Positions 3,518-58,466 of a stretch of DNA of 64,000 bases are shown one piece after another; position 1 is the first letter of the stretch; every line of letters starts with the position of its first letter. The translations under genes and the position numbers were made by a program. Origin of the DNA: Gemmatimonadaceae bacterium (GTDB lineage: Bacteria; Gemmatimonadota; Gemmatimonadetes; Gemmatimonadales; Gemmatimonadaceae); NCBI GenBank assembly GCA_040882285.1, contig JBBEBQ010000007.1, positions 1 to 64,000 on the forward strand, in the 5' to 3' direction. The notes under the pieces are model-generated. The model saw only the letters and a list, made by a program, of their open reading frames with translations, did no database searches and was not told where the DNA came from.

Positions 3518-3982
3518 ATGAAATCGAAAGTCCACGGCTTGCTCCCCCTTGGTCTGCTGGTCGGACTACTCTGCGCGTGCGCCCATCCGGGCGGAACGGG
3601 CCCGGATGAAACAACAAGCGCCTTGTCCGGGGATCCACCCGGTGGAAGCGCCGTGACCGCGGAAGACATTCAACGCACCCCCAGCGTCCCGTTGGAAGAG
3701 CAGCTGAGGTCCGAATTCCCGGGGGTCTGGCTGACGCGCACCCCTGATGGTCGTATCGCCGTCCGCATCCGCGGCGCTACCTCCATGGTCGGGAGTAATG
3801 AGCCGTTGTTCGTGATCGACGGCATCCCGATCGAGCCGGGGCCGAATGGGGCCCTGACCGGAATCGTACCCAACGACATCAAGTCGATCGAGGTACTCAA
3901 GGATGCAGCCAGTACCGCGTTCTATGGATTGCGTGGCGCTAACGGCGTAGTCGTCATCAAGACCAAGCGACCGGGTCAGTAG
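3518..3982 (+). CDS. Stand-alone TonB-dependent receptor plug domain lipoprotein
   Basis: A 154-residue protein with a lipobox signal peptide (LLCAC) followed by a single TonB-receptor plug domain and no beta-barrel. The plug hallmarks are plain: [46 protein letters not shown]. They match the plug of the SusC protein at 10407-13514 motif for motif. Start at ATG 3518 (MKSKVHG); an ATG at 3503 is also possible. It is the only plus-strand gene within the locus and ends 7 bp inside the 3' end of the convergent haloperoxidase-like gene. What a barrel-less, membrane-anchored plug does is unknown; it could compete for TonB or gate a partner barrel. Confidence 0.85.
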
Positions 3983-5361: not shown

Positions 5362-8300
5362 CGCGCGGGGGTCCGAGTGGACCGGAAGACGAGCGGGCGA
5401 TCGTTGTTGCGCGTAACGACGTACACCTCTCCCTCACTCGTCCGAAGCCGCTGGATATCGCGCGCCTGCCCGGGCACGAAGAAGCCGCTCTCGGCTGCCC
5501 GCATCGGCGCGAACCTCCCGTTTCCGGTCCCGCGCAGAAACAGGCCATACCCCGCGGTCATCCGGCCGATCTCCGGCTTGACCCCGTCGAAATTTCCGGC
5601 CAGCAGCAAGTCTGTTTTCCCGTCGGCATCGAAATCGGACGCCAGGATTCCGTAGATCGGTGAAAGCTGCGCTTCGAGCGGCAGCGGGATGAGTGTGAAG
5701 GAACCGTCACCATTATTCCTGACGAGGGTCGTTGCAAAGGTGTGTGATTTCCTGAGAATCGCATCACCGAGCTCACCAGCCGGGAAAATATCCGTCACGG
5801 TCTGGCCCGCGTAGTCCTTGTAATTGAGGTAACGCGCCTTGAGAAAGGGGAGCGCCTTGATCAGGTCGTCACGCAGCGCGAGTGGATAACTGACGCCTCC
5901 GGTGTAATACGATACGATTTGCTCGACGAATCCGTTCCCGTCAAAATCCTTTACATGCATGGTCGCCGGTTCACTGTCGGTGGCACGAAGGCGCGTGTCG
6001 AGGCCCAGATTACCGATGACGAAGTCGGTAAGACCGTCGCCGGTAAAGTCGCCGGCAACGATCCGGTTCCACCAGCCGTGGCTCTTCTCGAGACCGCGCG
6101 CATGCATCCGCACGAGCTTTCCGTTACCGGCGTTTCGAAAAATGGTGATAGGCATCCACTCGCCCACCACGACGAGATCGAGCCGGCCGTCCTTGTCTAC
6201 ATCCTGCCAGACGGCGTCGGTGACCATGCCGGCCTGCGCCAGACCGGGCGCGGCTTGGCTGATGACATCGGTGAAACGGCCGCCCCCGTCGTTCCTGAGG
6301 AGCGCGCTCGTGGGATCTATCCCGTACCGGCCTGGAAGCACCCGTCCGCCGACGAAAAGATCCATGTCGCCGTCCCCATCGTAGTCGGCGGCCGTCACAC
6401 GCGATCCGCTGGTGAGCGCTGGCGGTATGCTACCCACTGCTTTTCTGAAATTACCCCGACCGTCGTTCAGGTACAGCCGGTCCGCGAGTGCCGGCGCCAT
6501 GTCGGAAAACTCATTGCCGCCGCTGACGACGTAGAGATCGGGGAATCCGTCCCCGTTGGCGTCGAAGAATACGGCGCCGAGGTCTTCCGAAATCCTGTCC
6601 TGCTCGAAGAGCCTATCGTTGGTTCCGACGAATCTGCCGCCACGCCGCTGGATCAGGAGCTTGCCCGGCTGATCCTTCGCACCCCCGATGAACGCGTCTT
6701 CCAGCCCGTCGCCATTCACGTCGGCTACGGCCATGTATGGCCCTTCCGTCGAAAGCATCTTGGGAATCAGACGCTCGCGATCGAAATCCACGAACGCGTT
6801 CTCCCGGTGCACGAAACCGAGATCGATACGGTCCGTCACATCCACGAAGACCGGCGTGGAGCGTTTGGGCTCCACGTCCACCGGCGAAACCGAGCCCGAC
6901 TGCCGGACCACCAAACGCTGGTTGGCCGCGACGTCGTTGAGGGTGCTCACCCGGCCGTCGGACCACTCGACCCTCACTGTGTCCACCTTGTCGAGCGTAC
7001 CGAGCCCGAACGTAAGCACATAGTCAACGCTCGACTGGAATCCGCGGGAGGGCATCATTTCCTGAAAGAATACGGATCCTCCGCCCGTCACTGTGACCTT
7101 GGCGCCAATGGCGAACCGATTGAGTTTTTCTCCTTCGAGCCTGACTTGGAGATACCGGTTATTCAGCAGTGACCGCGCGTTGTTTCGATAGACGAAAGCT
7201 TCCTGATTCACGTTGTTCACTACGAGGTCGAGCGCGCCGTCGCCGTTCAGATCACCGTATGCCGCTCCATTGGAGAACCCGCGCGTATCCAGTCCCCAAG
7301 TTGGACCCTCACTCGTGAAGGTGAGGTCACCGTTGTTTCGGAACGCATAGTTCGGAAGCTCCGTCGAGCTCATCGCGTTGACGAGGCCGAGGAAGTCAAC
7401 CCGCTTACCGCCCTTGGTCGCGGACGCCATCGTCTCATTGTTCGCCAGGAACGAGATGTAATCTTGTGACGTAACGTCGCGGGCCATGCCGTTCGTCACA
7501 TGGATGTCCTTATGACCATCCAGATCGAAATCGGCGATAAGCGCGCTCCAGCTCCAGTCCGTCCGGGCTACGCCCGAAAGCTGTCCGATTTCGCTGAACG
7601 TTCCGTTCGCGTTATTGAGCTGAAGCGTGTTCCTGGTGAACTGGTGGTGGTAGTCGTTTCTGACCTTGGTCTGGTACACGTCCCAGCCCTCGAACGAGCC
7701 CGTTGTCTTGAGCCTGTAATCATCCTCGGGCAGCATGTCGGTGACGTAGATGTCGAGCCAGCCGTCGTTGTTGATATCGGCCATGTCGAGACCCATCGAC
7801 GAATAGCTGATGGAGGGCATCTGCCGCTCGAGGTCCTCAACGAAAGTCCCATCGCGGTTATTGATGTAGAGATAGTCGCGCTCGAAGAAATCGTTCGAAA
7901 CGTAGATGTCCGGCCAGCCGTCGCGGTTCACGTCGCCCACCGCGACACCGAGACCGAACGCGATCTCGCTCCCGTAGATCCCGGCTGTCTCGCTCACATC
8001 GGTGAATCGCGCGCCGTCGTTGCGAAAGAGCTTGTGCCCGCCGAACTCGCTGCGCACATGCCGGATATTGCGCAACCCGAAGCTGCTGACGGGCCGAAAC
8101 GAATTGTTGACCACGTACAGGTCCAAGTCTCCGTCGCGGTCGTAGTCGAAGAAGGCAGCGTGCGTCGAGTAGCCTTCGTCCGCGATGCCGTAGGCGGTCG
8201 CCCTCTCGATGAAGGTCGGCACTCCCTCGGCGTTCAGTCCCCTGTTGATGTAAAGCTCGTTGGCCCTCCGCTCCCCTTCGACGTTTCCGGCATAGCAGAT

Positions 8301-8735
8301 GTAGATATCCAGCAGACCGTCGCCATTGACGTCGGCGATCGTGACTCCCGTCGCCCAGAAACCTTTTCCTTCGACCCCGGCTTCCCTGGTCACGTCGCGG
8401 AAGCGAAAGTCGCCCAGGTTCAGGTACAACCGGTTGCCGCCCAGGTTCGACGTCAGCAGAATTTCCGGCAGCCCGTCTCCGGTGAGGTCGCCCAGCGCCA
8501 CACCACCGCCGTTGTAGTAGTTGCGATACGTGAAGACGTTGAGCTCGCGCGTGTCGGTGAGGCGATTCTCGAAGCGAACGCCCGTATAATCCGACGGCAG
8601 GCTGGTGAAGAGATGGTTACCTACCGCAGGCGCCTCAACAGCCTGGTTCGCGGAGCCATCGGCAAGTGAGCAAGCCGCAACGAAATACAATCCCGAGAGC
8701 CTGAACAAGACGTTCAGGCCGAATGCCTTCTGCAT
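5358..8735 (-). CDS. FG-GAP/VCBS repeat lipoprotein with ASPIC/UnbV domain (CRTAC1-like), second copy
   Basis: About 1,125 residues, paralogous over its whole length to the gene at 105-3452. Start placed at ATG 8735, which gives a signal peptide with lipobox FVAAC; the ATG at 8756 lies inside a hairpin and is less likely. Repeats such as DVNGDGLLDIYI and DFDGNGFVEQI supply calcium-loop motifs; the ASPIC/UnbV-type domain has [32 protein letters not shown] and VEWSDGR. It follows susD after a strong stem-loop and overlaps the haloperoxidase-like gene by 4 bp. Probably an exposed binding partner in the SusCD locus; the ligand is unknown. Confidence 0.88.
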   Translation of the reverse strand: MQKAFGLNVLFRLSGLYFVAACSLADGSANQAVEAPAVGNHLFTSLPSDYTGVRFENRLTDTRELNVFTYRNYYNGGGVALGDLTGDGLPEILLTSNLGGNRLYLNLGDFRFRDVTREAGVEGKGFWATGVTIADVNGDGLLDIYICYAGNVEGERRANELYINRGLNAEGVPTFIERATAYGIADEGYSTHAAFFDYDRDGDLDLYVVNNSFRPVSSFGLRNIRHVRSEFGGHKLFRNDGARFTDVSETAGIYGSEIAFGLGVAVGDVNRDGWPDIYVSNDFFERDYLYINNRDGTFVEDLERQMPSISYSSMGLDMADINNDGWLDIYVTDMLPEDDYRLKTTGSFEGWDVYQTKVRNDYHHQFTRNTLQLNNANGTFSEIGQLSGVARTDWSWSALIADFDLDGHKDIHVTNGMARDVTSQDYISFLANNETMASATKGGKRVDFLGLVNAMSSTELPNYAFRNNGDLTFTSEGPTWGLDTRGFSNGAAYGDLNGDGALDLVVNNVNQEAFVYRNNARSLLNNRYLQVRLEGEKLNRFAIGAKVTVTGGGSVFFQEMMPSRGFQSSVDYVLTFGLGTLDKVDTVRVEWSDGRVSTLNDVAANQRLVVRQSGSVSPVDVEPKRSTPVFVDVTDRIDLGFVHRENAFVDFDRERLIPKMLSTEGPYMAVADVNGDGLEDAFIGGAKDQPGKLLIQRRGGRFVGTNDRLFEQDRISEDLGAVFFDANGDGFPDLYVVSGGNEFSDMAPALADRLYLNDGRGNFRKAVGSIPPALTSGSRVTAADYDGDGDMDLFVGGRVLPGRYGIDPTSALLRNDGGGRFTDVISQAAPGLAQAGMVTDAVWQDVDKDGRLDLVVVGEWMPITIFRNAGNGKLVRMHARGLEKSHGWWNRIVAGDFTGDGLTDFVIGNLGLDTRLRATDSEPATMHVKDFDGNGFVEQIVSYYTGGVSYPLALRDDLIKALPFLKARYLNYKDYAGQTVTDIFPAGELGDAILRKSHTFATTLVRNNGDGSFTLIPLPLEAQLSPIYGILASDFDADGKTDLLLAGNFDGVKPEIGRMTAGYGLFLRGTGNGRFAPMRAAESGFFVPGQARDIQRLRTSEGEVYVVTRNNDRPLVFRSTRTPAR

Positions 8736-8752
8736 GAAATAACCTGTTAAAT

Positions 8753-8793
8753 GCATCGTAGCCTGCTCTCACCCTGAGAGCAGGCTACGATGC
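8753..8793 (-). other. Perfect 18-bp stem-loop between susD and the propeller gene
   Basis: GCATCGTAGCCTGCTCTC is followed by a 5-base loop and its exact reverse complement. In the direction of transcription the structure lies just after the susD stop and ends 17 bp before the propeller start codon. There is no run of T after it, so it is not a textbook terminator. It could be an attenuator, a processing site, or a 3'-end stabiliser that keeps susCD mRNA more abundant than the downstream part. Confidence 0.7.
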
Positions 8794-8815
8794 CGAGTCG
8801 ATAACTACCCGGAAT

Positions 8816-10348
8816 TCAGTATCCGACGTTCTGCACGAGCAGCGGGTTGGTCTCGATCTGAGTCTGAGGAATCGGCATCAGGATGCGATACGGATCGGTT
8901 ACACCCTTGTTGAACCAGGCTCGCTGCGTGAACTGCCCGTGGCGTATAAGATCCTGCCTCCGCTTGCCCTCGGCGGTGAGCTCGAACAGACGCTCCTTCA
9001 GGATCACATTCCGAAACTCAGCCTGTGAGGTCGTCGCAGGAATCGGCTCGGGAGTAGCGAATACTCGCGCGCGCACGGTATTCACGAGCGCGATAGCCTC
9101 CGCGGTACGCCCAAGCTCGTTGAGCGCTTCGGCCTTGATGAGGTAGATCTCGCCGAGGCGAAAATGCGCGAAATCGTTGCCGTTGTCCTGGTTGACGTGA
9201 TTCGGATCGACCGTCCACTTAGCGATTCGCACACCGGCGCCTTCGCTGGCATTCGTCGGATCACCGATGTTCGGATCAAAAACGAGCGGCTCTCCCGTCC
9301 GGTCGTTGACCGGCTCTCCCGTCTCCAGATTGAACTGCCTGCCTTCGAGGAATATCTCCCGGCGCCGATCATCCGCGTCGAAAGCAAAATAGGTCTCGGC
9401 GATCGTAGCAAAGCCGTTCCAGGGGCTGGGCGTGAACTGGGTGTAATGCAGCGCCCGCAGGAGGAAGTTTAGCCCCAGCCCACTTTCGTTTAGGAACTTC
9501 ACCGCCAGGATGATTTCCGGCGACAGATAGTTGTCGTGGGTGAAGTTCGAGCGCCAGTTACCCGCGAGACTGTAGACGCCGGAATTAATGATTCTGTCCG
9601 CGACGGTGACGGCATCCTGCCACCGGGCCGCGCCTTTCTGCAGGCCCGCCGCGGTAACAGACCCGGAGAATACTTCGGCGTTCAAATACAGGCTCGCCAG
9701 AATAGCGTCGGCCGCGCCGCTAGTCATGCGCCCTTGCATCTCGGATGGCCAGGTAGCAGGCAGCACGGCCCGCGCCGCGTTCAGCTCGTCCTCGATGAAC
9801 TTGAATACTTCCGCACGGGTGTTCTGCTTTCGAGGCATGATCTCCGTGGTGGTCACGATCGGCACGCCACCGAACATGTCCTGGAGCAGGAAGTAATAGA
9901 ACGCACGTAATACCTTCAGCTCGGCCTCAACGACCGATTTGCTCGGGAAGCTCACCTTCTCCACGCCGGCCAGCACCGCGTTGGCCCGGGCCACGCCGAT
10001 AAAGAGAGCGTTCCACGCGCCATTGATGTCGTCCAGGCCCGAGGGACTGTTCGCACCCCAAAGCTGCCGGTCGATCTCCAGCCACCGGCCGTTGTCGTAC
10101 CAGTCGGTGCCGCGCGTCGGCACGATGTACTCGTCCGAGCTGATCTCGGTCAGATTGTAGTAGGCCTCCGTCGTCTGCCGCAGCTGCGCATAGACTGACG
10201 CCAGCGCTCCGATCACTTCTTCTTCGTTGTTGAAGAAATTCTCCGGAGCGATCGCGCTGGTCGGCTCCTCCGTCAGGTCGGTGCATCCCTGTAGGACCCC
10301 GACGGCCGGAAAAAGGACCAGCAGCGCGCGCAGTGCGGCCGTTCTCAT
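8816..10348 (-). CDS. SusD/RagB family nutrient-binding outer-membrane lipoprotein
   Basis: SusD-type lid protein that sits on the SusC barrel and captures ligand. Start placed at ATG 10348 because a GTGAGGGA ribosome site lies just upstream and the product then begins with a signal peptide and lipobox (VGVLQGC); an in-frame ATG at 10372 is the alternative. About 510 residues, normal for the family. Typical SusD features are ISSDEYI near the N-terminus, helical repeats and the C-terminal stretch DFAHFRLGEIYLIKAEALN followed by KERLFELTAEGKRRQDLIR. Cotranscribed with the SusC gene, which ends 58 bp upstream. Confidence 0.93.
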   Translation of the reverse strand: MRTAALRALLVLFPAVGVLQGCTDLTEEPTSAIAPENFFNNEEEVIGALASVYAQLRQTTEAYYNLTEISSDEYIVPTRGTDWYDNGRWLEIDRQLWGANSPSGLDDINGAWNALFIGVARANAVLAGVEKVSFPSKSVVEAELKVLRAFYYFLLQDMFGGVPIVTTTEIMPRKQNTRAEVFKFIEDELNAARAVLPATWPSEMQGRMTSGAADAILASLYLNAEVFSGSVTAAGLQKGAARWQDAVTVADRIINSGVYSLAGNWRSNFTHDNYLSPEIILAVKFLNESGLGLNFLLRALHYTQFTPSPWNGFATIAETYFAFDADDRRREIFLEGRQFNLETGEPVNDRTGEPLVFDPNIGDPTNASEGAGVRIAKWTVDPNHVNQDNGNDFAHFRLGEIYLIKAEALNELGRTAEAIALVNTVRARVFATPEPIPATTSQAEFRNVILKERLFELTAEGKRRQDLIRHGQFTQRAWFNKGVTDPYRILMPIPQTQIETNPLLVQNVGY

Positions 10349-10406
10349 TATTTCCCTCACAGCATCGGTCATACAGGTCGGATCCTGACGGAGGTTGGCG
10401 AGAAGG

Positions 10407-13400
10407 CTAGAACTGGACACGAAGTCCTCCCGTGATGGTGCGGGGGCGCGGATAATGGAGGTAATCTATCCCCCGGGTGCCCACACTGTTGATTCCGGCA
10501 TCGGTGTGTACTTCCGGGTCGTAGCCTGAGTAGTCCGTCAGCAGAATCAAATTGTCGCCCGAGAGGTAGACCCGGGCCCGCTGGCCCATGCCCGTGAACG
10601 TGGGCATGTCGAAGCTGTATCCTACCGTCAGATTCTGTAGACGCACGAAAGATCCATCCTCGATCCAGCGTGACGAATAGATCTGGGGCTCATCAATATC
10701 CACGCCGTCGTCGAGAGCCTCCTTGAGGAAATTCTTGCCGCGCTTCGCATTGCCCTTGGTCGCGTACACGAGCGCCGTGTTGTTGAACACATCGAGCCCC
10801 TGCTGGCTGTTGACCAGAAAGCTGAAATCGAAATTGCCGTAAGTGGCTCGGCTGTTGATGCCGAAGCTGAAGTTTGGATTGGCATCTCCGATTACGACGT
10901 AATCGTCACCCCCTGGAGAGGTCGTGACTCCGGACAGCTCGCGGGTCAATTCCCGTCCCGCGGCGTCCCGCGTGACCGTGTACTTGTTGAACTCCTGCTG
11001 GCCGGAGGCGTTCACGCCAATGAACTGCGGTCCGTAGAACGTTCCGATCGCATGGCCTGGTATCACTCGCTGGGAGACCTGGCCGGACTGGCCCTCTCCG
11101 CTGACTCGGCCGGTGGAGATGAAACTCCGGCCGCCGAGATCCACGACCTCGTTTCGCTGAACATCGAAGACGATGCCGGCGTCCCAGGTCAGACCGGTGC
11201 GGTTTATCAACGATCCATCGAGCGAGAATTCGAAGCCCTTGTTCTGGGTCTTCCCGATGTTCTCCAGCCTGGTGGACGCTACCGCGGGCTGAGGTACCGG
11301 AACGGTGAGCAACAGGTCATTCGTCTTCTTCACATAGTACTCGACGCTGCCGTTGAACCGATTGTCCAAAAAGCCGTAGTCGAGCGCCACATTCGTCTGC
11401 GCGGTCTCTTCCCACTTGAGATCCGGGTTGGGATTCTGAGTCGGAGAGAAACCGGTCACTGCCCGTTCGCCGAACACGTACCGCGAGTTTCCGTCGGCAG
11501 CCAGCAGGATCAGTGACGCGTACGGCGGCACGCCGGGGTTGCCCTGCAATCCCCAGCCAGCGCGAAGACGCAGCTCGGAGAACGGGCCGCGGGGAATGAA
11601 GCTCTCTTCGCTCAACCGCCAGGATCCCGAGATGGCCGGAAAGACCGCCCACTTGTTCCCCTCTCCGAACATGGACGCCCCGTCCCGCCTGAGTACGCCG
11701 GTCAGGAAGTAGCGGTCCTTGAAGCTGTAATTCGCTCTCGACAAAAAGCCGATCAGCCGACTGTCTTCGCGCCGCGAATAGAGAGGCTGCGGCTGGCTTC
11801 CGCTGCTGAGGCTGTGATAGGCGGACGCATCGGTGAGGAAATTCCGAGTCTCCGCGTAGAATTCAGTGAGCGTGTTACCGAAGAACTCGTACCCGCCCAG
11901 CACGTCGAAGTCGTGGTTGCCGGCGAATTGTGGGTGATAGGTCAGAATCGTTTGCAGCGTCTTGGACTGATTGTTCCGGTTCGCCTGCCGGGCGAGCCCC
12001 TGATACTGCGCTCCAACGGGATTTGCCCGCGGGAAGTAGGTGTCGCGGTTGCTGTCGAATCGATCGATGCCGACGCTCACCCTTGCGGTCAGAGCCGAGA
12101 AGATGTCGTAGTCGGCCGAGACGTTGCCGAGGACTCGGGTGGTCTTACCCAGGTCCAGTATCTGCGTGGCGAGCGCCACCGGGTTTCGCACCGACTGAAA
12201 GCCGGGTCCAAGCTCGAAGAAAGTAGCCTCTCCCGTGGCCGGGTCGGTCATGGAAACCGGATACGTGGGGTTGTACACGAGCGTATTGATGAACACGCCC
12301 CCTTCAAAGCCGCCGGTGTTGTCGAACGGGAGATAGTCGTTGATGACGTGCGAGCCGGTCAGATTGAGTCCCATGCGCAGCCGCCCGGTCAAGGCATGAT
12401 GAGTTCCGTTCAGCCGCGCCTGGTACCGCTTAAAGCCGTTATCCAGCACCACTCCCTGCTGGCTGAGATGGTTGAGCGAAGCGCGGAACTGCGTGTTCGG
12501 GGAACCACCGGCGAAGGACAGGTTATGGTTGACTGTCGCGGCGCTGCGGGTCATCGCTTCTTCCCAATCCGTATCAGCCGTCCCCAGCCCTGCAAGGACG
12601 CTCGCACTCACGTTCCCCTCGGCCACCTGTTCCTGGATGAAGTTTCTGAATTCGGCGCCGGAAAGCACTTCGAGCGACCGCCCGAGTGAAGATCGGCCCG
12701 CAGAAAACTCATACTCCATCGTGGGGCCGCCCGCTGCGCCCTTCTTGGTCTCGATGACGATGACACCGTTCGCGGCGCGCGTGCCGTAGATCGCTGCCGC
12801 AGCATCCTTCAGGATGGTGACCGACGCAATGTCGGCGGGATTGAGGAGATTCAGCGGATTGCGCGGCAGGGCCGGCTCATTGTCGCTGATTCTGACGGCG
12901 GACGCTTCGGTTGGCACGTTGTTGACCGGAACGCCGTCGATCACGTACAGCGGGTCGTTGCTCGCACTGATAGAGGTGCCGCCGCGGATGCGTATCTGCG
13001 CCCCGCCGCCCGGCTCGCCGCTGTTCTGAGTGATGTTGACTCCGGCGGCCCGCCCCTGGATCATCTGGTCGACGTTGGCTATCGCCCCGACGTTCGCCTC
13101 GCTCGCGTCAATAGTCGCAATCGAGCCTGTGATCGCCACTCGGCGCTGGGTGCCATAGCCCGTGGTGACAACCTCTTCGAGCACGGTCGCCGCTCCGCCG
13201 AGCATGAACTGGAGCGTAGCCGTCGCGCCAGCGGCTACGGTCACGCTTTGCACTTGCGGGGTGTATCCGATCCGGCGTGCCCGCACGCTGTGAGTTCCTG
13301 CGGGCACTCCGCTTAAGACGAAGGTTCCGTCATTCCGTGTGAGGGCGCCTCGGTCTGTCCCTTCGATGAAAACGGTGACACCGGCAAGCGGCTGCTGACT

Positions 13401-13514
13401 CGTGCTGTCAACGACTCGTCCGGTGACGGTGCCTGTCTGGGCCTGGGCGGCAAGCGGAGCCGACAAAAACGCGCATCCAACAAGCGCCAGAAAGACGTTA
13501 CGGACCTTTACCAT
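10407..13514 (-). CDS. SusC/RagA family TonB-linked outer-membrane protein
   Basis: TonB-dependent outer-membrane importer of about 1,035 residues. Start at ATG 13514 gives a signal peptide ending APLAAQAQ. Then follows a carboxypeptidase-regulatory-like domain (TGRVVDSTSQQPLAGVTV), a plug domain with VEEVVTTGYGTQ, QIRIRGGTS, PLYVIDGVPV and TILKDAAAAIYG, and a long beta-barrel ending in the expected aromatic residue (GGLRVQF). With the SusD lid it should import an oligomeric substrate energised by TonB. No glycanase, peptidase or sulfatase is nearby, so the substrate is open. Confidence 0.95.
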   Translation of the reverse strand: MVKVRNVFLALVGCAFLSAPLAAQAQTGTVTGRVVDSTSQQPLAGVTVFIEGTDRGALTRNDGTFVLSGVPAGTHSVRARRIGYTPQVQSVTVAAGATATLQFMLGGAATVLEEVVTTGYGTQRRVAITGSIATIDASEANVGAIANVDQMIQGRAAGVNITQNSGEPGGGAQIRIRGGTSISASNDPLYVIDGVPVNNVPTEASAVRISDNEPALPRNPLNLLNPADIASVTILKDAAAAIYGTRAANGVIVIETKKGAAGGPTMEYEFSAGRSSLGRSLEVLSGAEFRNFIQEQVAEGNVSASVLAGLGTADTDWEEAMTRSAATVNHNLSFAGGSPNTQFRASLNHLSQQGVVLDNGFKRYQARLNGTHHALTGRLRMGLNLTGSHVINDYLPFDNTGGFEGGVFINTLVYNPTYPVSMTDPATGEATFFELGPGFQSVRNPVALATQILDLGKTTRVLGNVSADYDIFSALTARVSVGIDRFDSNRDTYFPRANPVGAQYQGLARQANRNNQSKTLQTILTYHPQFAGNHDFDVLGGYEFFGNTLTEFYAETRNFLTDASAYHSLSSGSQPQPLYSRREDSRLIGFLSRANYSFKDRYFLTGVLRRDGASMFGEGNKWAVFPAISGSWRLSEESFIPRGPFSELRLRAGWGLQGNPGVPPYASLILLAADGNSRYVFGERAVTGFSPTQNPNPDLKWEETAQTNVALDYGFLDNRFNGSVEYYVKKTNDLLLTVPVPQPAVASTRLENIGKTQNKGFEFSLDGSLINRTGLTWDAGIVFDVQRNEVVDLGGRSFISTGRVSGEGQSGQVSQRVIPGHAIGTFYGPQFIGVNASGQQEFNKYTVTRDAAGRELTRELSGVTTSPGGDDYVVIGDANPNFSFGINSRATYGNFDFSFLVNSQQGLDVFNNTALVYATKGNAKRGKNFLKEALDDGVDIDEPQIYSSRWIEDGSFVRLQNLTVGYSFDMPTFTGMGQRARVYLSGDNLILLTDYSGYDPEVHTDAGINSVGTRGIDYLHYPRPRTITGGLRVQF

Positions 13515-13590
13515 AATGATTGCGCTCCATTGGATGGGAGTTCGGACGCATCGCGTGCCAGGTACCCTCATGACTCGGGCAAGAGTCAAG

Positions 13591-13618
13591 AGTATGGTTC
13601 CGGGCAACGCCCTGTCAA
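13591..13618 (-). promoter_or_regulatory. Probable sigma70-type promoter for the susC operon
   Basis: On the minus strand TTGACA (13618-13613) and CATACT (13596-13591) are separated by 16 bp, about 75 bp upstream of the susC ATG. The -35 box is a perfect match and the -10 box matches 4 of 6 positions. Nothing else was recognised in the rest of 13515-13800 apart from a 64-codon open frame (13586-13780) with no recognisable homology. Confidence 0.5.
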
Positions 13619-13802
13619 GCAATTCCGGCCTGCAGGGCCTTTCTTCGGCTTGTATGCCGCGAATCGGGTCTCATCTGGATGAGGCGATCCTGCATCGAAT
13701 GAAGTTGTGCGCCGCGTGCTGTTTGCCGGGATCGTCTTCGTCGGAACCCACGATAGGCCGCGTTCGGAGCTAATTGACATGGCGGCTTCCGTTTAGGGAG
13801 TG

Positions 13803-49752: not shown

Positions 49753-50727
49753 TCATATCTCCCAATTCGACAGCACGACGCCGGACTTGGCCAAAACCTC
49801 GCCGTACCCGTCCACCGTCATCCGTAGGTCGGTCCACCGCACCTTCGCTCCCTGCGCCACCAGAATCCGGTACGCCGACGGATAAGCGCCCTGCACCCTG
49901 ACCGACATCGTCCGCGCCCCGATCTTCCGCGCGTACGCCGCGAGATCCACGACGATCCGCGCGAACGCGTCGTCGTCGCGCGCCACGAGCTTGAGCACTC
50001 GCATCTCTTCCCGCTCGCGGCCCTCGACGAGCGGCACCGAATGGCACAGCGCGAACGCCCGCAGCTCCGACCCCGTGTAGCTCAGCAGCGTATCGCCGAG
50101 CCCCAGCTCGTGCGTCAGCCGCAGCTCGCGGGTGAAGTCGTACCCCGGGCACAGCGCGCCCAGCAGATCCGCGCATTGCGTGATCGCGGCGTCGCGCTGT
50201 TCCTCGGTCATCCGCCCCAGCTCGACCGCCTTGGTCGCGCCGAGTGCCGCCGGCGACGTGAGCGTGACCGTCAGTGGGCCGGGCAGGAAATCGAGCGACG
50301 AGTAGAAGCCGATGTTGTCCATGGTGCGCGGCATGGTCTCGAGTCCTATGACGCGGGCGCCGCGCGCCTTGAGCCACTCCACCCCGTGCGTCACGATCAT
50401 CTTCCCCGCGCCGCGCCCCTGATGCAACGACGCCACGGCCAGCGGCCCCATCCATCCCTCCGTCCCGGACGCGTGCACCAGGTTGAACGCCGCGATCCCG
50501 CCGTCCTGATCGCGCCAGAGCACCGCGCCGCGCGCGGCGTCGGTCACGGCGTACTGCCACATCTGCGGGTTCAAGCCGGGCACGCGCACGCTCATCATCC
50601 CGTCCTTGCGGTAGCGCTCGGTGAACGCTTCGCTGAACAGCCGGTTCAGCGCGGGGATGTCGTCGTCGACGATCTGGAAGGGACCGTCCAGCGACCGCTC
50701 GCTCCGCCAGCCCCGGGCCGCGGACAT
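49753..50727 (-). CDS. GNAT-family acetyltransferase
   Basis: 324 residues from ATG 50727, which overlaps the Rad50-like stop by one base (TGATG). An N-terminal GNAT domain carries GWMGPLAVASLHQGRGAGKMIVTHG, the acetyl-CoA loop. A second half (from about residue 185) has the outline of a second GNAT-like fold without a good acetyl-CoA loop. Last gene of the NurA-HerA-Mre11-Rad50 operon; it may modify a component, but nothing shows that. Confidence 0.85.
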   Translation of the reverse strand: MSAARGWRSERSLDGPFQIVDDDIPALNRLFSEAFTERYRKDGMMSVRVPGLNPQMWQYAVTDAARGAVLWRDQDGGIAAFNLVHASGTEGWMGPLAVASLHQGRGAGKMIVTHGVEWLKARGARVIGLETMPRTMDNIGFYSSLDFLPGPLTVTLTSPAALGATKAVELGRMTEEQRDAAITQCADLLGALCPGYDFTRELRLTHELGLGDTLLSYTGSELRAFALCHSVPLVEGREREEMRVLKLVARDDDAFARIVVDLAAYARKIGARTMSVRVQGAYPSAYRILVAQGAKVRWTDLRMTVDGYGEVLAKSGVVLSNWEI

Positions 50728-53192
50728 CAGCTCGCGGCGGCGACCGGCTCGAGCACCGGAATTCCCGCGAGCGCGCCCGCGAGATCGTCGCACGGAGCGC
50801 TCTCCTCCACCCGCGATGCGCCGCTCGCCTCGTCGTACCGCACCGAGATGACGCGGTCGAGCCCTTCGCGCACGGACTCGATGTGCGTGATGAGGATCAC
50901 CTGCTCGAAGCGGTCGTGCAGCCGGCGGAGAAGGTTGATCACGTTGTGCCGCCGCGCCTCGTCGAGCGAGCCGAAGATCTCGTCCAGGATCAGCAGCGAG
51001 AACGGCTGCCCCGCGCGCTCCGCGATCATCTGCGAGATCGCAAGCCGCAGCACCAGGTGCGCGACGTCCTCCTCGCCGCCCGAAATCACCGGCTTCGGGA
51101 TCCCGTCGTCGAGCACCGTGAGATCGTAATCGTTGGTCAGCTCCAGCTCGGAGTAGCGCGAGTCGGTGAGCTCGGAGAGGAATCCGCTGGCGAGCTCCGA
51201 CAGCTCGGGACGGAGCTGCGCGTTCAGGTCGCTGCGCAGATCGGAGTACGCCCGGTCCAGCTCGTCGTGGATCCTGCGCGCGCGCTTGAGCGCGGCCAGC
51301 TTCTCCTCCCGCTTGGCCAGCTCGGCGGCCGCCTCGCGTGCGCCGTCCGCGGCGGCGTTCGCGCTGCGCAGCTCTCCCTCGGCGGTTATGCGCTCCATCT
51401 CCGCCTTCCGCGCGGCTTCCGTGGCGCGCTCATGCTCCACCTTCGTCGAGAGATACTCTTCCTCGGAGAAAGCGATCTTCTCCTGCGCTTCCCGCAGCTC
51501 CTGCGTGCGCGACCGGTGCGCGACGAGCAGCGTGGCCACCTCGTCGTACTCCGCGCGGATCTGCGGCTCGCGCCCGGCCAGCGCGCCGAGCCGCTCTCCC
51601 TTCGCGGCCAGCGGAGTCAGCTCCTCGATCCGCGCGCGGACGCGCGCATGCTCGGCCGCGTCGAAGCCGCCCGGCATCGCGGCGATCTCCTGCACGAGCT
51701 GCGCGTAGCGCTCCTGCTTGAGCGCCAGCTCGCGCGCGACGCCCGTCATCTCCTGGACCGCGCTCTGCACCTTCGCGAGCCGGCGCTCGAGACCGGTGAC
51801 GGTCTGCACGGCCGCGCGCTTCGCCTCTTCGAGCGCGGTTATGTCCTCGGGCATCTGCTCCAGATCTTTCAGCCGCTTCCGGAAGTACTTGCCGTCGGAC
51901 GTCAGCGCGGTCATCTGCTCGGCCAGGTGATCCATGACGCGGCTGAAGTTCTCGCCGAGCGCGCGGCTGCACGTGGGACACGCTCCGTCGGGGCCGAGGC
52001 CAGCGAGCAGCTGGCGCTGCTCCTTCACCTCGCCGTGCTGCCGCAGCAGCGACTGCAGCTTGGTTTGCGCCTCCTGCGTGTCGCGCACCCATTCGGTACG
52101 GCGCACTTCCAGCTTGCCCTCGATCTCCTCGCGCGCCGCGCACTGCTTCTCCAGCTCCAGCGTGACCGTCTCCTCCTCCGCCGGCGCGGCCGCGAGCTTC
52201 GCCTTCCTGGCGCTCAGCCGCTCGATCTCCCCGGCGATCTCGCGGGACTGTTCGGCCAGCGTCTGCCGCCTGCCTTCCTCGCGGTAGAGGGAATCCAGCC
52301 GCTGCAGCTCGAGCGTGAGCGCGGCGAGCGGCTCCGTGCGCTGGCGCAGATCGTCCAGCTCCGCTCCGGCGACGACGATCTCGTTGAGGTCCGCGCCGAT
52401 CCGCTCGCCGCGCGCTACCAGCGCGCGCACCTCCGATTCGGCAACCTGGATCTCGGCCGCGATCTTCTGCAGCGACTCCCGCGCCTCCTGCGCCGCGGTC
52501 CAGCGCGGCGCGATTTGCTGCAGCACCGCGTCGCACTCCGAGTGTACCCGCCGCTTCTCCGTCGCGAGCCGCGCGCTGTCGGCGGCGTGCTTGCCGGCCT
52601 CGGTCAGCGTGCGCGCGACGACTTCAGGATCCGGCATCCCCGCGCGCAGCCCCGACATCTCCGCGAGAATCGTCTTGCGCCGCTCGCGCACCAGCTCCTG
52701 CGCCGTCCGCAGCTTCTCGTAGCCGAGCACGCGCGAGAGAAAATGGGCGCGCTCGGTCGGCTTCATCGCGGCCATCACGCTGAGCTGCTTCTGGTCGGTG
52801 AAGTACGTGTTGAAAAACTCCGCGCGCGTCATCCCGAGCCGGCGCTGGATGAACTCGTTCACGCCGGTCTTGGTGGTCGCGACCGGCGAGTCGTCGTCGT
52901 TGACGTATACCTCCGCGCGCGACAGCTCCCGGCTCACGCGATAGCGCTGGCCCGACAGCTCGAAGTCGAGCACGACCCTGACCGGCGCGCGCTCGCCCGC
53001 GCGCTGGAAGCGGATCGTCTCGAGCTTGTCGCGCTGCGCGCCCGTGCCGTACAGGCACCACGCGATCGCCTCGAGGATCGTCGTCTTCCCCGCGCCGTTG
53101 GGACCGATGACGCCGGTGATCCCGGTGCCGAACTCGATGCTCGTGTCCGCGTGCTGCCGGAAATTCGTGAGCTGGAGCCGGTTGATCCTCAT
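50727..53192 (-). CDS. Rad50/SbcC-type SMC-like ATPase
   Basis: 821 residues from ATG 53192. Walker A GPNGAGKTTILEAIAW opens the N-terminal lobe (RINRLQLTNFRQH), long coiled coils follow, a zinc hook CPTCSRALG lies near the middle, and the C-terminal lobe has signature VISGGEEDVAHLVLRLAIS and Walker B LLILDEIFGSLD. With the Mre11/SbcD nuclease it tethers and processes DNA ends. The start overlaps that gene's stop by 4 bp. The length is closer to archaeal Rad50 (about 880) than to E. coli SbcC (about 1,050). Confidence 0.95.
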   Translation of the reverse strand: MRINRLQLTNFRQHADTSIEFGTGITGVIGPNGAGKTTILEAIAWCLYGTGAQRDKLETIRFQRAGERAPVRVVLDFELSGQRYRVSRELSRAEVYVNDDDSPVATTKTGVNEFIQRRLGMTRAEFFNTYFTDQKQLSVMAAMKPTERAHFLSRVLGYEKLRTAQELVRERRKTILAEMSGLRAGMPDPEVVARTLTEAGKHAADSARLATEKRRVHSECDAVLQQIAPRWTAAQEARESLQKIAAEIQVAESEVRALVARGERIGADLNEIVVAGAELDDLRQRTEPLAALTLELQRLDSLYREEGRRQTLAEQSREIAGEIERLSARKAKLAAAPAEEETVTLELEKQCAAREEIEGKLEVRRTEWVRDTQEAQTKLQSLLRQHGEVKEQRQLLAGLGPDGACPTCSRALGENFSRVMDHLAEQMTALTSDGKYFRKRLKDLEQMPEDITALEEAKRAAVQTVTGLERRLAKVQSAVQEMTGVARELALKQERYAQLVQEIAAMPGGFDAAEHARVRARIEELTPLAAKGERLGALAGREPQIRAEYDEVATLLVAHRSRTQELREAQEKIAFSEEEYLSTKVEHERATEAARKAEMERITAEGELRSANAAADGAREAAAELAKREEKLAALKRARRIHDELDRAYSDLRSDLNAQLRPELSELASGFLSELTDSRYSELELTNDYDLTVLDDGIPKPVISGGEEDVAHLVLRLAISQMIAERAGQPFSLLILDEIFGSLDEARRHNVINLLRRLHDRFEQVILITHIESVREGLDRVISVRYDEASGASRVEESAPCDDLAGALAGIPVLEPVAAAS

Positions 53193-54412
53193 ACGGGCCC
53201 GTCGGCGAAGACCGGCTGCTCGACTGCTTCGGCCTGGCTGAGATAATCGAGTCCCGCGGCGACCAGCTCCTCGCGATCGATCTCGGAGTCTATCGGCCGG
53301 CTGCGCAGCCCGTCGCGCACCAGCTCGGCGAGCGACGCGCGCCGGCCGGGAGCGGCGTGGCCGTGCACCCTGATGACCTCGGGCCGGCGCGGATCGAGGT
53401 GGAAGTGCAGCGCGCGGCGCTTGTACTCGCGCAGCGCCCTGTGATCCAGCTCGCGCGCCACGTGCCGCGCGACGTTCTTCGCGACCAGCCGCACGATCGC
53501 GTCGTCGATCGGCTCGCGCTCCACGCGCTCGCTGATCGCCTGATCCACCTCGGCGGCGGTCATCCCGCGCGCGTCGAGCTCCGGCAAGTCGATGACCGCG
53601 CGCGTCTCGATCGGATGAAAAGTCTGCTTCCCGCTGTCGAGGTCCCACTCGATGAAGCCCTTGCCGGGCTTGCCGAGCCGCGCACGCGGCGCCGCGGCCC
53701 GCCACGTCTTCCCGTCGAGCGCGGCTTCCTCGGCGACCTCGCCCCAGATGGTGGTGCTGGTGTATTCGAGGGAGCCGGAGTAAAACGCGTTCGGCGCGAT
53801 CTCGCGCCAGACGTGGTAGTGCCCGAGCGCCACGTAGTCCCAGTTCTGCGCGCCGAGCTCTTCCTTGCTGATCTCCATGGTCCCGCGCTCCGCCATCCCC
53901 AGATGCGGCGGAAGTAGCCCCTCGATCTCGCCGTGCAGCAGCAGCACGTTGTAGCGCGACTTCCCCTGCGGCCGCAGCACCGGATGCTCGCTGTGTCCCA
54001 TGTCCGGAACCGCGAGAACGGAGAGATTCCGCTCGTTGAACGTGAGCAGCTCCGGGCTGCCGTCCACGACCTCGATCCCGAGCGGCTTGAACAGCTTGAG
54101 CAGGCACCCCGTCTCGGACGTGCGCGGGGTATCGTGATTGCCCGCGACCATTACCACGATAGCGTCGGGCAGCATCTGCGTCAGGCGCGAGAGCTGCTTG
54201 AACGCGTGAATGATCGCCGGGTTGGTGGGCCGCACATTGTGGAACACGTCGCCCGCGAACAGCACGATATCGGGCTGCAGCTCGATCGCCTTGTCGATGG
54301 CCTTCCGGAACGCGAGCGCGACGTCGTGCTCCCGCTGATTGATCCCCATCGGTGTGAAGCGCTGGTACTGGCGGAAGCCGAGATGGAGATCCGACAGATG
54401 GACTAGTCTCAT
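53189..54412 (-). CDS. Mre11/SbcD-type DNA double-strand break nuclease
   Basis: 407 residues. The five phosphoesterase motifs are present in order: LSDLHLG, FAGDVFHNVRPTN, AGNHDTPRT, LLLHGEIEG, and GHYHVW. This metal-dependent nuclease cuts hairpins and resects ends with Rad50. It overlaps the Rad50-like gene and the upstream secreted-protein gene by 4 bp each. Confidence 0.95.
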   Translation of the reverse strand: MRLVHLSDLHLGFRQYQRFTPMGINQREHDVALAFRKAIDKAIELQPDIVLFAGDVFHNVRPTNPAIIHAFKQLSRLTQMLPDAIVVMVAGNHDTPRTSETGCLLKLFKPLGIEVVDGSPELLTFNERNLSVLAVPDMGHSEHPVLRPQGKSRYNVLLLHGEIEGLLPPHLGMAERGTMEISKEELGAQNWDYVALGHYHVWREIAPNAFYSGSLEYTSTTIWGEVAEEAALDGKTWRAAAPRARLGKPGKGFIEWDLDSGKQTFHPIETRAVIDLPELDARGMTAAEVDQAISERVEREPIDDAIVRLVAKNVARHVARELDHRALREYKRRALHFHLDPRRPEVIRVHGHAAPGRRASLAELVRDGLRSRPIDSEIDREELVAAGLDYLSQAEAVEQPVFADGPV

Positions 54413-55251
54413 GAACCTCGCATTGCGCGGAGTCGCTGCGTGACCTTCATCTGCACCTGCACGGGCGGCGTCCCGTCTTCGCCCGACGTCATCACCGTCC
54501 GCACGTTCAGCACGAGATGCGTATCGGTGATCCAGCCGAGCCTGCGATCCAGCTGCATGAAGCCCGCGAGCGTGCCGGTGCTCCGCTGCGAGCCGCCCCT
54601 ACCGCCGGATCCGCCGATCCTGGTGAGCGTGCCGGTCATCGAGATGTATGCAATATCGCCATTTCCGCTCAGCGAATCGAGCCTGAAGTTCGCCTGCACC
54701 CGCGCCGTCTCGCCGGCGCGGGTGCCGATGGGAAGCTCGAGCGTGCGGGCCCACCGGCCACGGACGTTGACCGGCGCGTCGGGCAGCATGGGCGCCGCGG
54801 GCGGGAAGAAAGGCGTCGTCTCGCCGTCGTGCTCGCCCGTGTCGAGGACGCGCATGCCGCCGTCGTGGCCGACAATCATCGTGACCGTCGCTCCGGCCAG
54901 CGCGCTGCGCGGCGCGGCGAACCGCTTGCCGCCGACCGGCGTGATCTCCATGGAGTCCGTCACCGCCAGGACCCGGGTGCCGGACGCGAGCCGCCGCAGC
55001 GGAATCGCCCGCGTCCGCACGTGCGCGGAGCCGGTCATGGACTGCGGCGCGCCCGCGGCCTCGGGCGAGGTGCCGCTGACCTCGATCTCCTGGTCGAGCT
55101 GCATGTGGATCGTGTCACCGACCTGCGGCCGGATCTCGAGCCGGACGCGCTGGGCGTGCGCCGGCGCCGCGCACAGCAACAGCACGAGCATCGCCGCAGC
55201 GCCGCCGATCCCGCACCGGATGCGGAGCGCTCTCACGCGCTCAAAATCCAT
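54409..55251 (-). CDS. Secreted beta-rich protein of unknown function
   Basis: 280 residues with a signal peptide (AAMLVLLLCAAPAHAQ). The body is rich in beta-strands and resembles DUF6263-type secreted proteins (GDTIHMQLDQEIEV, TVTMIVGHDGGMRVLDTG, RWARTLELPIGTR), with glycine-rich GGSGGRGGSQRS near residue 225. It is wedged between HerA (11-bp overlap) and Mre11 (4-bp overlap) inside a DNA-repair operon. Its role there is not apparent, since it would act outside the cytoplasm. Confidence 0.75.
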   Translation of the reverse strand: MDFERVRALRIRCGIGGAAAMLVLLLCAAPAHAQRVRLEIRPQVGDTIHMQLDQEIEVSGTSPEAAGAPQSMTGSAHVRTRAIPLRRLASGTRVLAVTDSMEITPVGGKRFAAPRSALAGATVTMIVGHDGGMRVLDTGEHDGETTPFFPPAAPMLPDAPVNVRGRWARTLELPIGTRAGETARVQANFRLDSLSGNGDIAYISMTGTLTRIGGSGGRGGSQRSTGTLAGFMQLDRRLGWITDTHLVLNVRTVMTSGEDGTPPVQVQMKVTQRLRAMRGS

Positions 55252-57196
55252 ACGGGTCGTCGCCCGCCGGAAGCTTGATGGGCGCGGGCCGCTGCCGCGG
55301 CGTCTCCGCCCGCACCGGCGCCAGCGGCCGCAGCCGCGACGCGAAGAACGCCTTCACGTCGCGCGGGCGCGCCAGCACGGTCGCGTTGCGCGCGTGAATC
55401 ACTTCCTCGTCTTCCCGCAGCGCGATGTGTTGCTTGACCCACTCGAGAGAGATCGTCGGATCCAGAACGCGGAGCGAGCGCGTCACCGCGGCGTCGAGCG
55501 CCACTTCCGCCGCCTGCGGGAACAGCTCGGCGCCGTCGCGCCCCTGCATCACCGCCGGCCGCGGGAACCTGATGAACACGGGCTGCGTGAAATGCGGGTG
55601 CCGCACCATCAGCTGACCCTTCTCCAGCGTGGACAGCTTGGTCTTGACCGCCTGGCTCAACACCGCGTACCCGGGAGCGGCGAGCTCGTCCGCGTCCATC
55701 CGCCCGAACAGCGACGTGCCGGAGTTGCCGACGACGCGACGGTGCACCTGCGAGCGGAACTGCTGCGCGCCGAACAAAACGAGGCCGAGGTAGCGCCCCC
55801 GCTCGGCGATGTCGAGCAGCATTTTTCTGACATAGGTCTCCGGCCCCTCCGTCGCGGCGTACTTGTTCAGCTCGTCGACGAAAACCACCACATGGTCAAC
55901 GCCCAGGTTTCGCCGCTCGAGGTGCTCGCGGAGCTTGGAAACGATGCGCGTGAAGATCAGGTCCTGCGCGTCCTCCTCGAGGAGCGCCACGTCCACTACG
56001 TACACTCCGCGGTCCTCGAAGCTCCCGAACGGAAGGTCGCTCACGGTGCCCTCGGCCGTGACCAGCCCGGCGCAGCGCAGGGCGATGTTGGTCAGCCGGT
56101 TGCGAACCTTCCTGATCGTCGCGACGTGGTGCGTCCGGTAGCTCTCGGAGTTGCTCTCCTCCAGCATCGAGAGAACGTCTCGGAACCACTCATCCAGCTC
56201 GGCGAAGGAGCCGACGCTGTACGCGCGCTTCGCCAGCCGCTCGTCGCGAAACTCGCGGCCCGCGATCTTGTCGCGGATGAAGTCGATCACCGCGTCGGCC
56301 TTTGCGTCGACGTCGTCCCTGTTGAGCAGCACTTCCGCGTACTGCAACACCTCGCGCAGCCCCCAGGTCAGCGGCTGCACGTTGTGCAGCAGTGCTTCAT
56401 TCGAGCGGAGAGTGTTGAGATTGTAGCCCCCGGCGTCGTACGCCGCGAAGTACCGCACGTTCGAGAACGGCTTCGCCGGAACGCCCATCTTCTCGTACAT
56501 GATCTCGTCCGCCGGCTCGATCCGCCCGGGCTGGTCTAGATAGCAGAGATCCGGGCCCTTCACGTTGAACGCGACCGCCGCGATCGTGCCCTTCTTCTCC
56601 GGGAAGTGCGTGAACAGCGACGACAGCAGCCATTCGACGGCGCTGGTCTTGGTCGCAAGCCCCGACACGCCGGTGATGTTCAGGTGCGCGGCTTCGGGCC
56701 CCACGAGAAAATCCGCGTCGAGATAGATCGGCGCGTCCGTCCCGCCCGCGTGGTAGATCCCGATCGGGATTCCGGTGCGCGCGCCTTCCTTGAGATAGCC
56801 GTCCATCCGCAGCGCGACGGCGACGTCGTTCTCGTCGGCGAGAAAGACCGACCCCATCGGCACCGGCTGGAGCGGCTCTTCCGGGATCATCCGCAGCACA
56901 GCCGCGGTGTACAGCCGGATCTCCGTCCGCTCGGTGGGCGCGAACCCGGCGCTCGACGGCTCGCCGTCGTGGCCGAGCACGTCGTGCATCGGAGAGACGA
57001 GATCGCTGTAGCTGAATCCCTCGATTACCGCGCCGTAGATCTTCGGCAGCTGCCCGTCCACCGGATGCTCGCCGTCCACGCGCACGATCGTCCCGATCCC
57101 GACGGGGGAGGTGACCGCCGTCCAGAAGTGGAACTGGTGCGGCGTGTTCGGCCGCCGCTCCGTCGCTACGACTCTTCCCAGCGCCTGCTCGCTCAC
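55241..57196 (-). CDS. herA: HerA-like DNA translocase ATPase
   Basis: 651 residues from GTG 57196, overlapping the NurA stop by 4 bp. HerA forms a hexameric ring that pumps DNA into NurA. An N-terminal beta domain (GRVVATERRPNTPHQFHFWT) precedes the ATPase. The P-loop is unusual: ITGVSGLATKTS with Lys183, where Thr replaces the Gly that normally precedes the lysine. Walker B is VVVFVDELNKYA and a later arginine-rich region QQFRSQVHRRVVG may carry sensor residues. The next genes encode a secreted protein, Mre11 and Rad50. Confidence 0.87.
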   Translation of the reverse strand: MSEQALGRVVATERRPNTPHQFHFWTAVTSPVGIGTIVRVDGEHPVDGQLPKIYGAVIEGFSYSDLVSPMHDVLGHDGEPSSAGFAPTERTEIRLYTAAVLRMIPEEPLQPVPMGSVFLADENDVAVALRMDGYLKEGARTGIPIGIYHAGGTDAPIYLDADFLVGPEAAHLNITGVSGLATKTSAVEWLLSSLFTHFPEKKGTIAAVAFNVKGPDLCYLDQPGRIEPADEIMYEKMGVPAKPFSNVRYFAAYDAGGYNLNTLRSNEALLHNVQPLTWGLREVLQYAEVLLNRDDVDAKADAVIDFIRDKIAGREFRDERLAKRAYSVGSFAELDEWFRDVLSMLEESNSESYRTHHVATIRKVRNRLTNIALRCAGLVTAEGTVSDLPFGSFEDRGVYVVDVALLEEDAQDLIFTRIVSKLREHLERRNLGVDHVVVFVDELNKYAATEGPETYVRKMLLDIAERGRYLGLVLFGAQQFRSQVHRRVVGNSGTSLFGRMDADELAAPGYAVLSQAVKTKLSTLEKGQLMVRHPHFTQPVFIRFPRPAVMQGRDGAELFPQAAEVALDAAVTRSLRVLDPTISLEWVKQHIALREDEEVIHARNATVLARPRDVKAFFASRLRPLAPVRAETPRQRPAPIKLPAGDDPYGF

Positions 57197-58173
57197 GCGA
57201 TCGCCCGCAGGAACTCTTCGGAGTTGCGCACGCCGTAGCTCATCTTGTCCCAGCGAGAGTCGGGGAGCGCGAGCGGCGCCGCTTCCGCCAGCACCCAGCG
57301 GGAGATCCGGTCCACGTCGGCGTCGGACGCGATCGTGTCGCGCGCCTCGATGCGCACCAGTCCCCACGTCGCGTCGTGTCCCTTGTTGTCGCGCAGCCGC
57401 AGGTACCAGCTCGACACGGGAGCGCGGCCGCCCGACTGTATCCGGAACGGCGGCGTGCGCTCACCCTGCGCGAGCCCGAGCACGACGTCGAGGTCGGCCC
57501 CCTCCGCGTGAATGGTGTTGTGCGTCTTCACCACGCCCACAGCCACGCCCGACCCCGCGACGCGCGCGCTCGACGCGATTCCGCCGTCAATGCAGACCGG
57601 CTCCTCGCGCGCCGCGCACCACGCTTCCGCCAGTATCGCTTCGACGCGCTCGCGATCCCGGCGAACCGACTTGATCGCGCTCTCGAGCAGCGCGGCGGGA
57701 TGGCGGGATGGCAGCTCGCCCATGCTCGCGTCAGTCGTGTCCACGACGGTAAAAGCCGGATCGCTCTCGCCCGCCAGTGCCGGCGCGTACGCGAAGGGCA
57801 GATACAGCCGCCGCTCGACGCGCGGCGCGCACCCCGTCCATGTCACGAGCCTCCGCTCGATCCGCTCGCGCACGCCGGCCGCGACGATCCCGAGCACGAT
57901 GGGCACGCCGCCGTGGCGCGCGACGATGCGCACGCTCTGCGTCCCATCGAGAAACGCCGCGAACCGCGCCTCCGGGTCACCGCTCACTTTTACAGCCCGC
58001 ATCGCGCCGCCGCCGAGCAGCGGAGCCGCAGCGAGCTGCGGCGGGTCCATCCGTGGAAACGCGGGATCGGACAGTTGGCCGGCCTCGACCGCGTCGACTC
58101 CCGGCAGCAGCCGCTGCACGTACCGCAGCGCAGCGCGGCTCGCGGCGTCCGGACCGGGCTGAAGGAGCGCCAT
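57193..58173 (-). CDS. nurA: NurA-like 5'-3' nuclease
   Basis: 326 residues of the NurA type. Acidic active-site segments expected for the RNase H-like core are AAFLDGTQSVRI (near residue 75) and EPVCIDGGIASS (near 195), followed by AVGVVKTH and, near the end, SYGVRNSEEFLRAIA. NurA works inside the HerA ring to resect DNA ends together with Mre11-Rad50. It heads the operon. Confidence 0.8.
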   Translation of the reverse strand: MALLQPGPDAASRAALRYVQRLLPGVDAVEAGQLSDPAFPRMDPPQLAAAPLLGGGAMRAVKVSGDPEARFAAFLDGTQSVRIVARHGGVPIVLGIVAAGVRERIERRLVTWTGCAPRVERRLYLPFAYAPALAGESDPAFTVVDTTDASMGELPSRHPAALLESAIKSVRRDRERVEAILAEAWCAAREEPVCIDGGIASSARVAGSGVAVGVVKTHNTIHAEGADLDVVLGLAQGERTPPFRIQSGGRAPVSSWYLRLRDNKGHDATWGLVRIEARDTIASDADVDRISRWVLAEAAPLALPDSRWDKMSYGVRNSEEFLRAIA

Positions 58174-58187
58174 CTAACGACCCACCT

Positions 58188-58466
58188 TCACTCTATGCCG
58201 ATATCCCAGGCCTGCTCCAGGTCCTTCTTCGAGTAAGCGCGGAACGCGGTCAGCGTCTGGGTGTGGACGAGACCGGGAACCGTCGGAAAATTCTCGGTCA
58301 CGACGCGCGCAACGCTCTCGTAGTCGGTCACTTCGATCATCGCCACGAGATCCCATTCGCCCGACACGGAATACACCTGCGAGACGCCCTCGATTCCAGC
58401 GAGCGCCGTCGCGCATTGCGGGATGAGTCGGGGCTCGGCTTTGATGAGAACTATCGCGGTTATCAT
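58188..58466 (-). CDS. Stand-alone Lrp/AsnC ligand-binding (RAM) domain protein
   Basis: 92 residues with no DNA-binding helix-turn-helix. The RAM fold is recognised by ITAIVLIKAEP, IEGVSQVYSVSGEWDLVAMI and VPGLVHTQTLTAF. Such single-domain proteins bind amino acids or modulate full Lrp regulators. It lies 14 bp upstream of nurA on the same strand, so it may be the true first gene of the DNA-end-processing operon. Confidence 0.85.
   Translation of the reverse strand: MITAIVLIKAEPRLIPQCATALAGIEGVSQVYSVSGEWDLVAMIEVTDYESVARVVTENFPTVPGLVHTQTLTAFRAYSKKDLEQAWDIGIE

Follow-up and report, generated by a model that had tools for sequence, protein, structure and literature searches.

Among archaea, nurA, herA, mre11 and rad50 form an operon in Sulfolobus and Pyrococcus (Constantinesco 2004, as related in PMC5448004). 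Among bacteria, Oceanithermus profundus carries a nurA-hepA-sbcD-sbcC cluster (PMC5448004), and Deinococcus radiodurans encodes NurA and HerA in a two-gene operon without mre11-rad50 (PMC9960219). The role of HerA-NurA is disputed, being assigned to resection (PMC9960219) or to antiviral degradation (PMC12977600). Deletions in Deinococcus or Thermus had modest effects on damage resistance or even improved it (PMC9960219), and a 2026 study of Thermococcus HerA-NurA holds end resection to be unlikely and suggests antiviral work (PMC12977600).

Gene content and product identity

Within the window, by which we mean the whole 64,000-nucleotide stretch of DNA analyzed, all four components are encoded among seven genes on the minus strand at 49753-58466, in the order Lrp-RAM, nurA, herA, secreted protein, mre11, rad50 and GNAT (Table 1). 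Their coordinates agree with the preliminary description: from nurA to the GNAT gene, neighbors overlap by 4, 11, 4, 4 and 1 bp, and a 14-bp gap separates the end of the Lrp-RAM gene from the start of nurA.

Table 1. Genes of the cluster in the window, in order of transcription
Gene	Position	Strand	Product and basis of assignment
Stand-alone Lrp/AsnC RAM domain	58188..58466	-	92 aa, PF01037; syntenic neighbor
nurA	57193..58173	-	326 aa, RNase H-like nuclease, NurA fold (AlphaFold model vs PDB)
herA	55241..57196	-	651 aa, GTG start, FtsK/HerA translocase ATPase (DrHerA 7f6d_B match, Walker motifs)
Secreted beta-rich protein, DUF6263-like	54409..55251	-	280 aa, signal-peptide-like N-terminus, PF19777 in homologs
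mre11/sbcD	53189..54412	-	407 aa, metallophosphoesterase nuclease, PF00149
rad50/sbcC	50727..53192	-	821 aa, ABC ATPase with CPTC zinc hook, AAA_23/SMC_N
GNAT acetyltransferase	49753..50727	-	324 aa, PF00583; last gene

Neither Pfam nor NCBIfam gave a match for NurA, and HerA went unrecognized by Pfam, and by NCBIfam at its cut-offs; Pfam models largely miss bacterial HerA-NurA. Despite this silence, both proteins are identified by profile, fold and motif evidence. Sequence comparison with the PDB matched HerA to Deinococcus HerA (7f6d_B, E=1e-43), with no archaeal HerA among the PDB sequence matches. Its Walker A (SG-ATKT) and Walker B (DELNKYA) motifs are invariant across 19 homologs; K183/T184 and D441/E442 are likewise invariant and correspond in the alignment to residues that PMC9960219 names in DrHerA. 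These catalytic motifs are kept from the window's genome to the Deinococcus-like types, and the protein has an extra ~100 aa at its C-terminus. For NurA, the AlphaFold model (pLDDT 84.8) matched known NurA structures (1zup, Z 18.2; DrNurA 7f6d_G, Z 17.8; SsoNurA 2ygk, Z 13.7), the best fold outside the NurA/TdpB group reaching only Z 8.9. The NurA family profile also matched 7f6d_H (E=5.5e-4), and D196 and E178 are invariant among homologs, with D76 replaced in two of them, both from a second Gemmatimonadota family (f2).

The nearest solved structures to Mre11 and Rad50 are archaeal and Thermotoga proteins, including those of M. jannaschii (Mre11 3auz, E=1e-15; Rad50 3aux, E=1e-34). DxH, GD, GNHD and GHxH motifs are present in the Mre11 translation, as are GPNGAGKTT, CPTC, SGGE and LLILDE in that of Rad50. 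For the secreted protein, the model is rich in beta structure and matches lipid-carrier sheets and porins weakly; 12 of 15 homologs match PF19777. For the Lrp protein, domain search returned AsnC_trans_reg as the sole match and no HTH. Elsewhere in the window, two large FG-GAP/UnbV-ASPIC proteins are encoded on either side of a PAP2 gene (105-13622), and a SusD/TonB-receptor pair lies at 8816-13622.

Conservation within and beyond Gemmatimonadota

HerA was found in 187 of 297 sampled Gemmatimonadota genomes, mostly at 56-98% identity in the window's own family (f1) and in families f2, f4 and f9, and as a divergent type of ~30% identity in f5-f7. The gene order is kept across f1 and f2, and the divergent HerA type occurs with the same partners in a third family. 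Linkage of herA with mre11-rad50 on a single strand holds for each of the 20 f1 loci taken from other genera and of the 12 f2 loci that were read, albeit with 6 kb inserted in one of them; nurA is at times out of place or goes undetected (three herA-positive f2 genomes gave no NurA by profile). All four genes, ordered as NurA-HerA-Mre11-Rad50 or HerA-Mre11-Rad50-NurA, stand in 37 of 47 Gemmatimonadota loci. A 4-bp overlap of nurA and herA recurs in 12 loci, and in most of 43 mre11 either overlaps rad50 or directly adjoins it, not counting a few pairs that were chained in error. Far from being unique to this contig, the order reappears across dozens of genomes and is therefore not due to chance. 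A thymidine kinase gene and further neighbors are conserved beside the cluster, which thus has a stable chromosomal place, and inheritance in f1 and f2 is near-vertical.

The preliminary description saw a complete end-resection machine under one control. What is supported is a complete, translationally coupled module of the four genes NurA-HerA-Mre11-Rad50; Lrp-RAM and the secreted protein seem to be neighbors instead. In several relatives an opposite-strand gene stands between Lrp-RAM and nurA, which leaves operon membership of Lrp-RAM unsupported. The DUF6263-like secreted protein is unlikely to be part of the machine, its gene being restricted to f1 (it went undetected in the f2 loci read) and staying in f1 where nurA-herA have been lost. 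In 28 of 33 loci the GNAT gene overlaps rad50 or directly adjoins it. Because it is present in both f1 and f2, and also persists after nurA-herA loss, we regard GNAT as a conserved partner that is more likely tied to rad50 than to HerA; no GNAT match was found in the best 80 loci of HerA relatives, mostly from other phyla, described below. The opposite-strand genes between Lrp-RAM and nurA (or the secreted gene) are lipoprotein-like, as in loci L041 (2842-3831) and L131 (7878-8927). In locus L053, in which nurA was undetected, a conserved gene of ~168 aa (4480-4995) overlaps herA by 4 bp, and its homolog in L058 (14874-15377) lies upstream of nurA.

A HerA-alignment search of bacterial and archaeal genome contigs returned at least 578 relatives, ranked by similarity to the divergent f5-type HerA and hence silent on the window's HerA branch outside the phylum. 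Among the best 80 of these, 57 loci had all four genes in one or the other of the two orders, and several of those without the full set run into contig ends. Represented among the 80 are Actinomycetota, Chloroflexota, Acidobacteriota, a few Gemmatimonadota, and further MAGs or genomes, with MAGs named as by their depositors. With the four-gene order this widespread among the best 80 loci, the assertion that bacterial SbcCD is usually separate fails for HerA-bearing bacteria. Nor is an "archaeal-style" order anything special, as nurA/herA/sbcD/sbcC clusters are common in bacteria and that of Oceanithermus was already known (PMC5448004); the combination of HerA-NurA with Mre11-Rad50 is more frequent among bacteria than the "few bacteria" of PMC9960219 would suggest. 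In a HerA tree with an arbitrary root, built without archaeal sequences and without Oceanithermus HerA, the f1/f2/f4/f9 sequences form a clade apart from all others on a very long, fully supported branch.

Loss of herA and the occurrence of RecBCD/AddAB

We detected no RecBCD or AddAB in the window's own genome, although its 96.6% completeness allows for a missed gene: there was no RecC_C match, and the UvrD-type helicases examined included no AddA/AddB or RecB. The only PDDEXK_1 matches were a 335-aa frame by a BsuBI/PstI-like restriction gene and a 506-aa frame encoding a DUF2779 protein. Four UvrD_C proteins were found. Of the three annotated further, one is a UvrD/PcrA-like helicase, one a fusion of UvrD with an exonuclease, and one a short UvrD-like protein encoded next to an OLD-type ATPase; the remaining protein, a 760-aa frame without a PDDEXK_1 match, is of UvrD/PcrA size. 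The combination of length and nuclease domain that marks AddA, AddB or RecB was seen in none of the four. The genome does encode RecJ.

Some of these genes have settings worth recording. The OLD-type ATPase with a TOPRIM match (600 aa) adjoins the UvrD-like helicase (506 aa) outside the window on contig C7 (~80.8-84.1 kb; L236 3783-7102), a pair that resembles Gabija GajA-GajB. The fusion, a 969-aa protein on contig C6 (~93.1-96.0 kb; L235 7121-10030), joins a UvrD helicase to a DnaQ-like 3′-5′ exonuclease. On contig C18 (~212.5-216.2 kb; L129), the gene for the 335-aa stand-alone PDDEXK_1 nuclease lies upstream of one whose 840-aa product combines methylase and BsuBI/PstI restriction domains.

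Across family f1, herA is missing in 17 genomes and kept in 86. It is lost together with nurA, which was not found by profile in any of the 17, while mre11 is kept in 16 of them; in those herA-less loci that were read, the other cluster genes and the surrounding synteny are retained. RecC or a strong PDDEXK_1 nuclease occurs in 15 of the 17 herA-less genomes (13 with RecC and two with strong PDDEXK_1 matches in ~1000-aa frames), against 28 of the 86 herA-positive ones (17 with RecC, 11 with strong PDDEXK_1), where "AddAB-like" denotes the strength of the nuclease-domain match and, where listed, frame length, with the helicase not confirmed for each. G199 and G201, both herA-less, had neither a RecC nor a PDDEXK_1 match. 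Uncorrected for the tree, Fisher's test gave p=2.5e-5, p=1e-3 with weak matches and 0.01 at genus level. On the Mre11 tree, six of the seven inferred herA losses fall on RecBCD/AddAB-positive branches, which make up 31% of branch length (p=0.004, or p=0.03 after collapsing two losses); because the parsimony behind p=0.004 demands one unlikely herA regain, the count of loss events is only approximate. A tree-corrected test on independent pairs went in the expected direction without significance (2.3 vs 0.5 pairs, median p 0.6), the pairs being too few. The association is thus strong when uncorrected and weaker after tree correction, and we regard it as suggestive.

That a RecBCD/AddAB-type enzyme is usual where NurA-HerA is gone hints that NurA-HerA does the same job. 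The expectation that the operon serves as the main resection path holds in part: neither enzyme was detected in the window's own genome and NurA-HerA is the sole such system detected in most f1 genomes, but a third of the herA-positive f1 genomes (28/86) have both, as do f5 relatives, in many of which HerA occurs along with a ~1000-aa PDDEXK_1 frame. Since Gemmatimonadota thus offer natural gains and losses of RecBCD/AddAB and NurA-HerA while Mre11-Rad50 are kept, the role of HerA-NurA can be tested there by comparison and genetics.

Proposed function and relation to known systems

The cluster is probably a vertically inherited chromosomal DNA-end resection module, partly interchangeable with RecBCD/AddAB and dispensable where one of these is present. 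We infer its function, complex formation, resection polarity and in-vivo role as follows. Mre11-Rad50 would recognize and open the double-strand end, in line with the known biochemistry of the family; a HerA hexamer would load on the duplex and feed DNA to a NurA dimer, which would degrade it and leave 3′ single-stranded DNA before recombination. NurA-HerA would in this way take the RecBCD/AddAB role in Gemmatimonadota of the window's order, and would therefore become dispensable once a lineage has RecBCD or AddAB. Both the Thermococcus argument (PMC12977600) and the Deinococcus/Thermus deletion phenotypes (PMC9960219) count against such a role. A broader version, with deep-branching NurA-HerA and Mre11-Rad50 as the ancestral general resection machine of the order, interchangeable with RecBCD/AddAB, and the GNAT, coupled to rad50 in translation, as its dedicated regulator, is tentative and rather doubtful.

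The complementarity of NurA-HerA and RecBCD/AddAB cannot alone choose between repair and antiviral work, because RecBCD and AddAB both repair DNA and destroy foreign DNA. NurA-HerA might chiefly degrade linear foreign DNA, with Mre11-Rad50 as end sensor and repair secondary, and RecBCD/AddAB might replace it as destroyers of phage DNA too, a pattern of replacement compatible with either role; we consider this unlikely. The NurA model does match (Z 13.2) the NurA-like component, 8wfd, of TdpAB, a phosphorothioation-linked defense system. HerA with Sir2 or DUF4297 constitutes an anti-phage defense (as summarized in PMC12977600), and an antiviral role has been proposed for archaeal HerA-NurA (PMC12977600). 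Neither a Sir2 nor a DUF4297 domain turned up in the seven genes of the cluster or in the neighbors scanned. The cluster, however, holds its fixed place beside thymidine kinase with no defense island, is inherited near-vertically in f1 and f2, and has only remote plasmid and phage homologs (at most 33% identity), while PADLOC matches were weak for HerA and of a generic SMC/ABC type for Rad50. The patchy presence in defense islands that had been envisaged thus gave way to conserved synteny, and on the grounds of synteny, inheritance and the remoteness of plasmid and phage homologs we reject a defense-island reading. Overall, the chromosomal setting favors repair over an antiviral role.

Clustering of NurA-HerA and Mre11-Rad50 without a functional tie would accord with the loss of NurA-HerA while Mre11-Rad50 stay and with nurA lying away from herA in G139, G244 and f9 genomes, but is improbable, since the same four genes stand together in several phyla and in two different orders, which is hard to explain otherwise. 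That the window's lineage recently acquired an archaeal repair operon (ancient transfer is a separate matter) is highly improbable. Archaeal models and structures do give the best scores for Mre11 and Rad50, yet by sequence HerA matches the Deinococcus protein and none of the archaeal HerA entries in the PDB. In the tree lacking archaeal sequences it groups with f2, f4 and f9 in a deep clade of their own, and the order is common to order-level relatives and other bacterial phyla.

The resection module that we favor can be set beside four described systems. RecBCD/AddAB, undetected in the window's genome at the sensitivity used, are unrelated proteins for which the same job is proposed, and their distribution is partly complementary to that of the module. 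With the archaeal operon the cluster has in common the four components, their close linkage and the NurA fold, and its Mre11 and Rad50 are nearest to archaeal structures; it differs in a HerA of the bacterial kind (Walker A SG(L/V)ATKT), in a NurA missed by Pfam and in the added GNAT gene. D. radiodurans NurA-HerA (7f6d) shares with it the HerA sequence match, the NurA fold (Z 17.8) and the motor motifs, whereas the HerA C-terminus is longer in the window. Oceanithermus profundus has the same bacterial gene architecture, with no GNAT gene mentioned in its description (PMC5448004). The window's cluster is a deep variant of a known system, not one new in kind.
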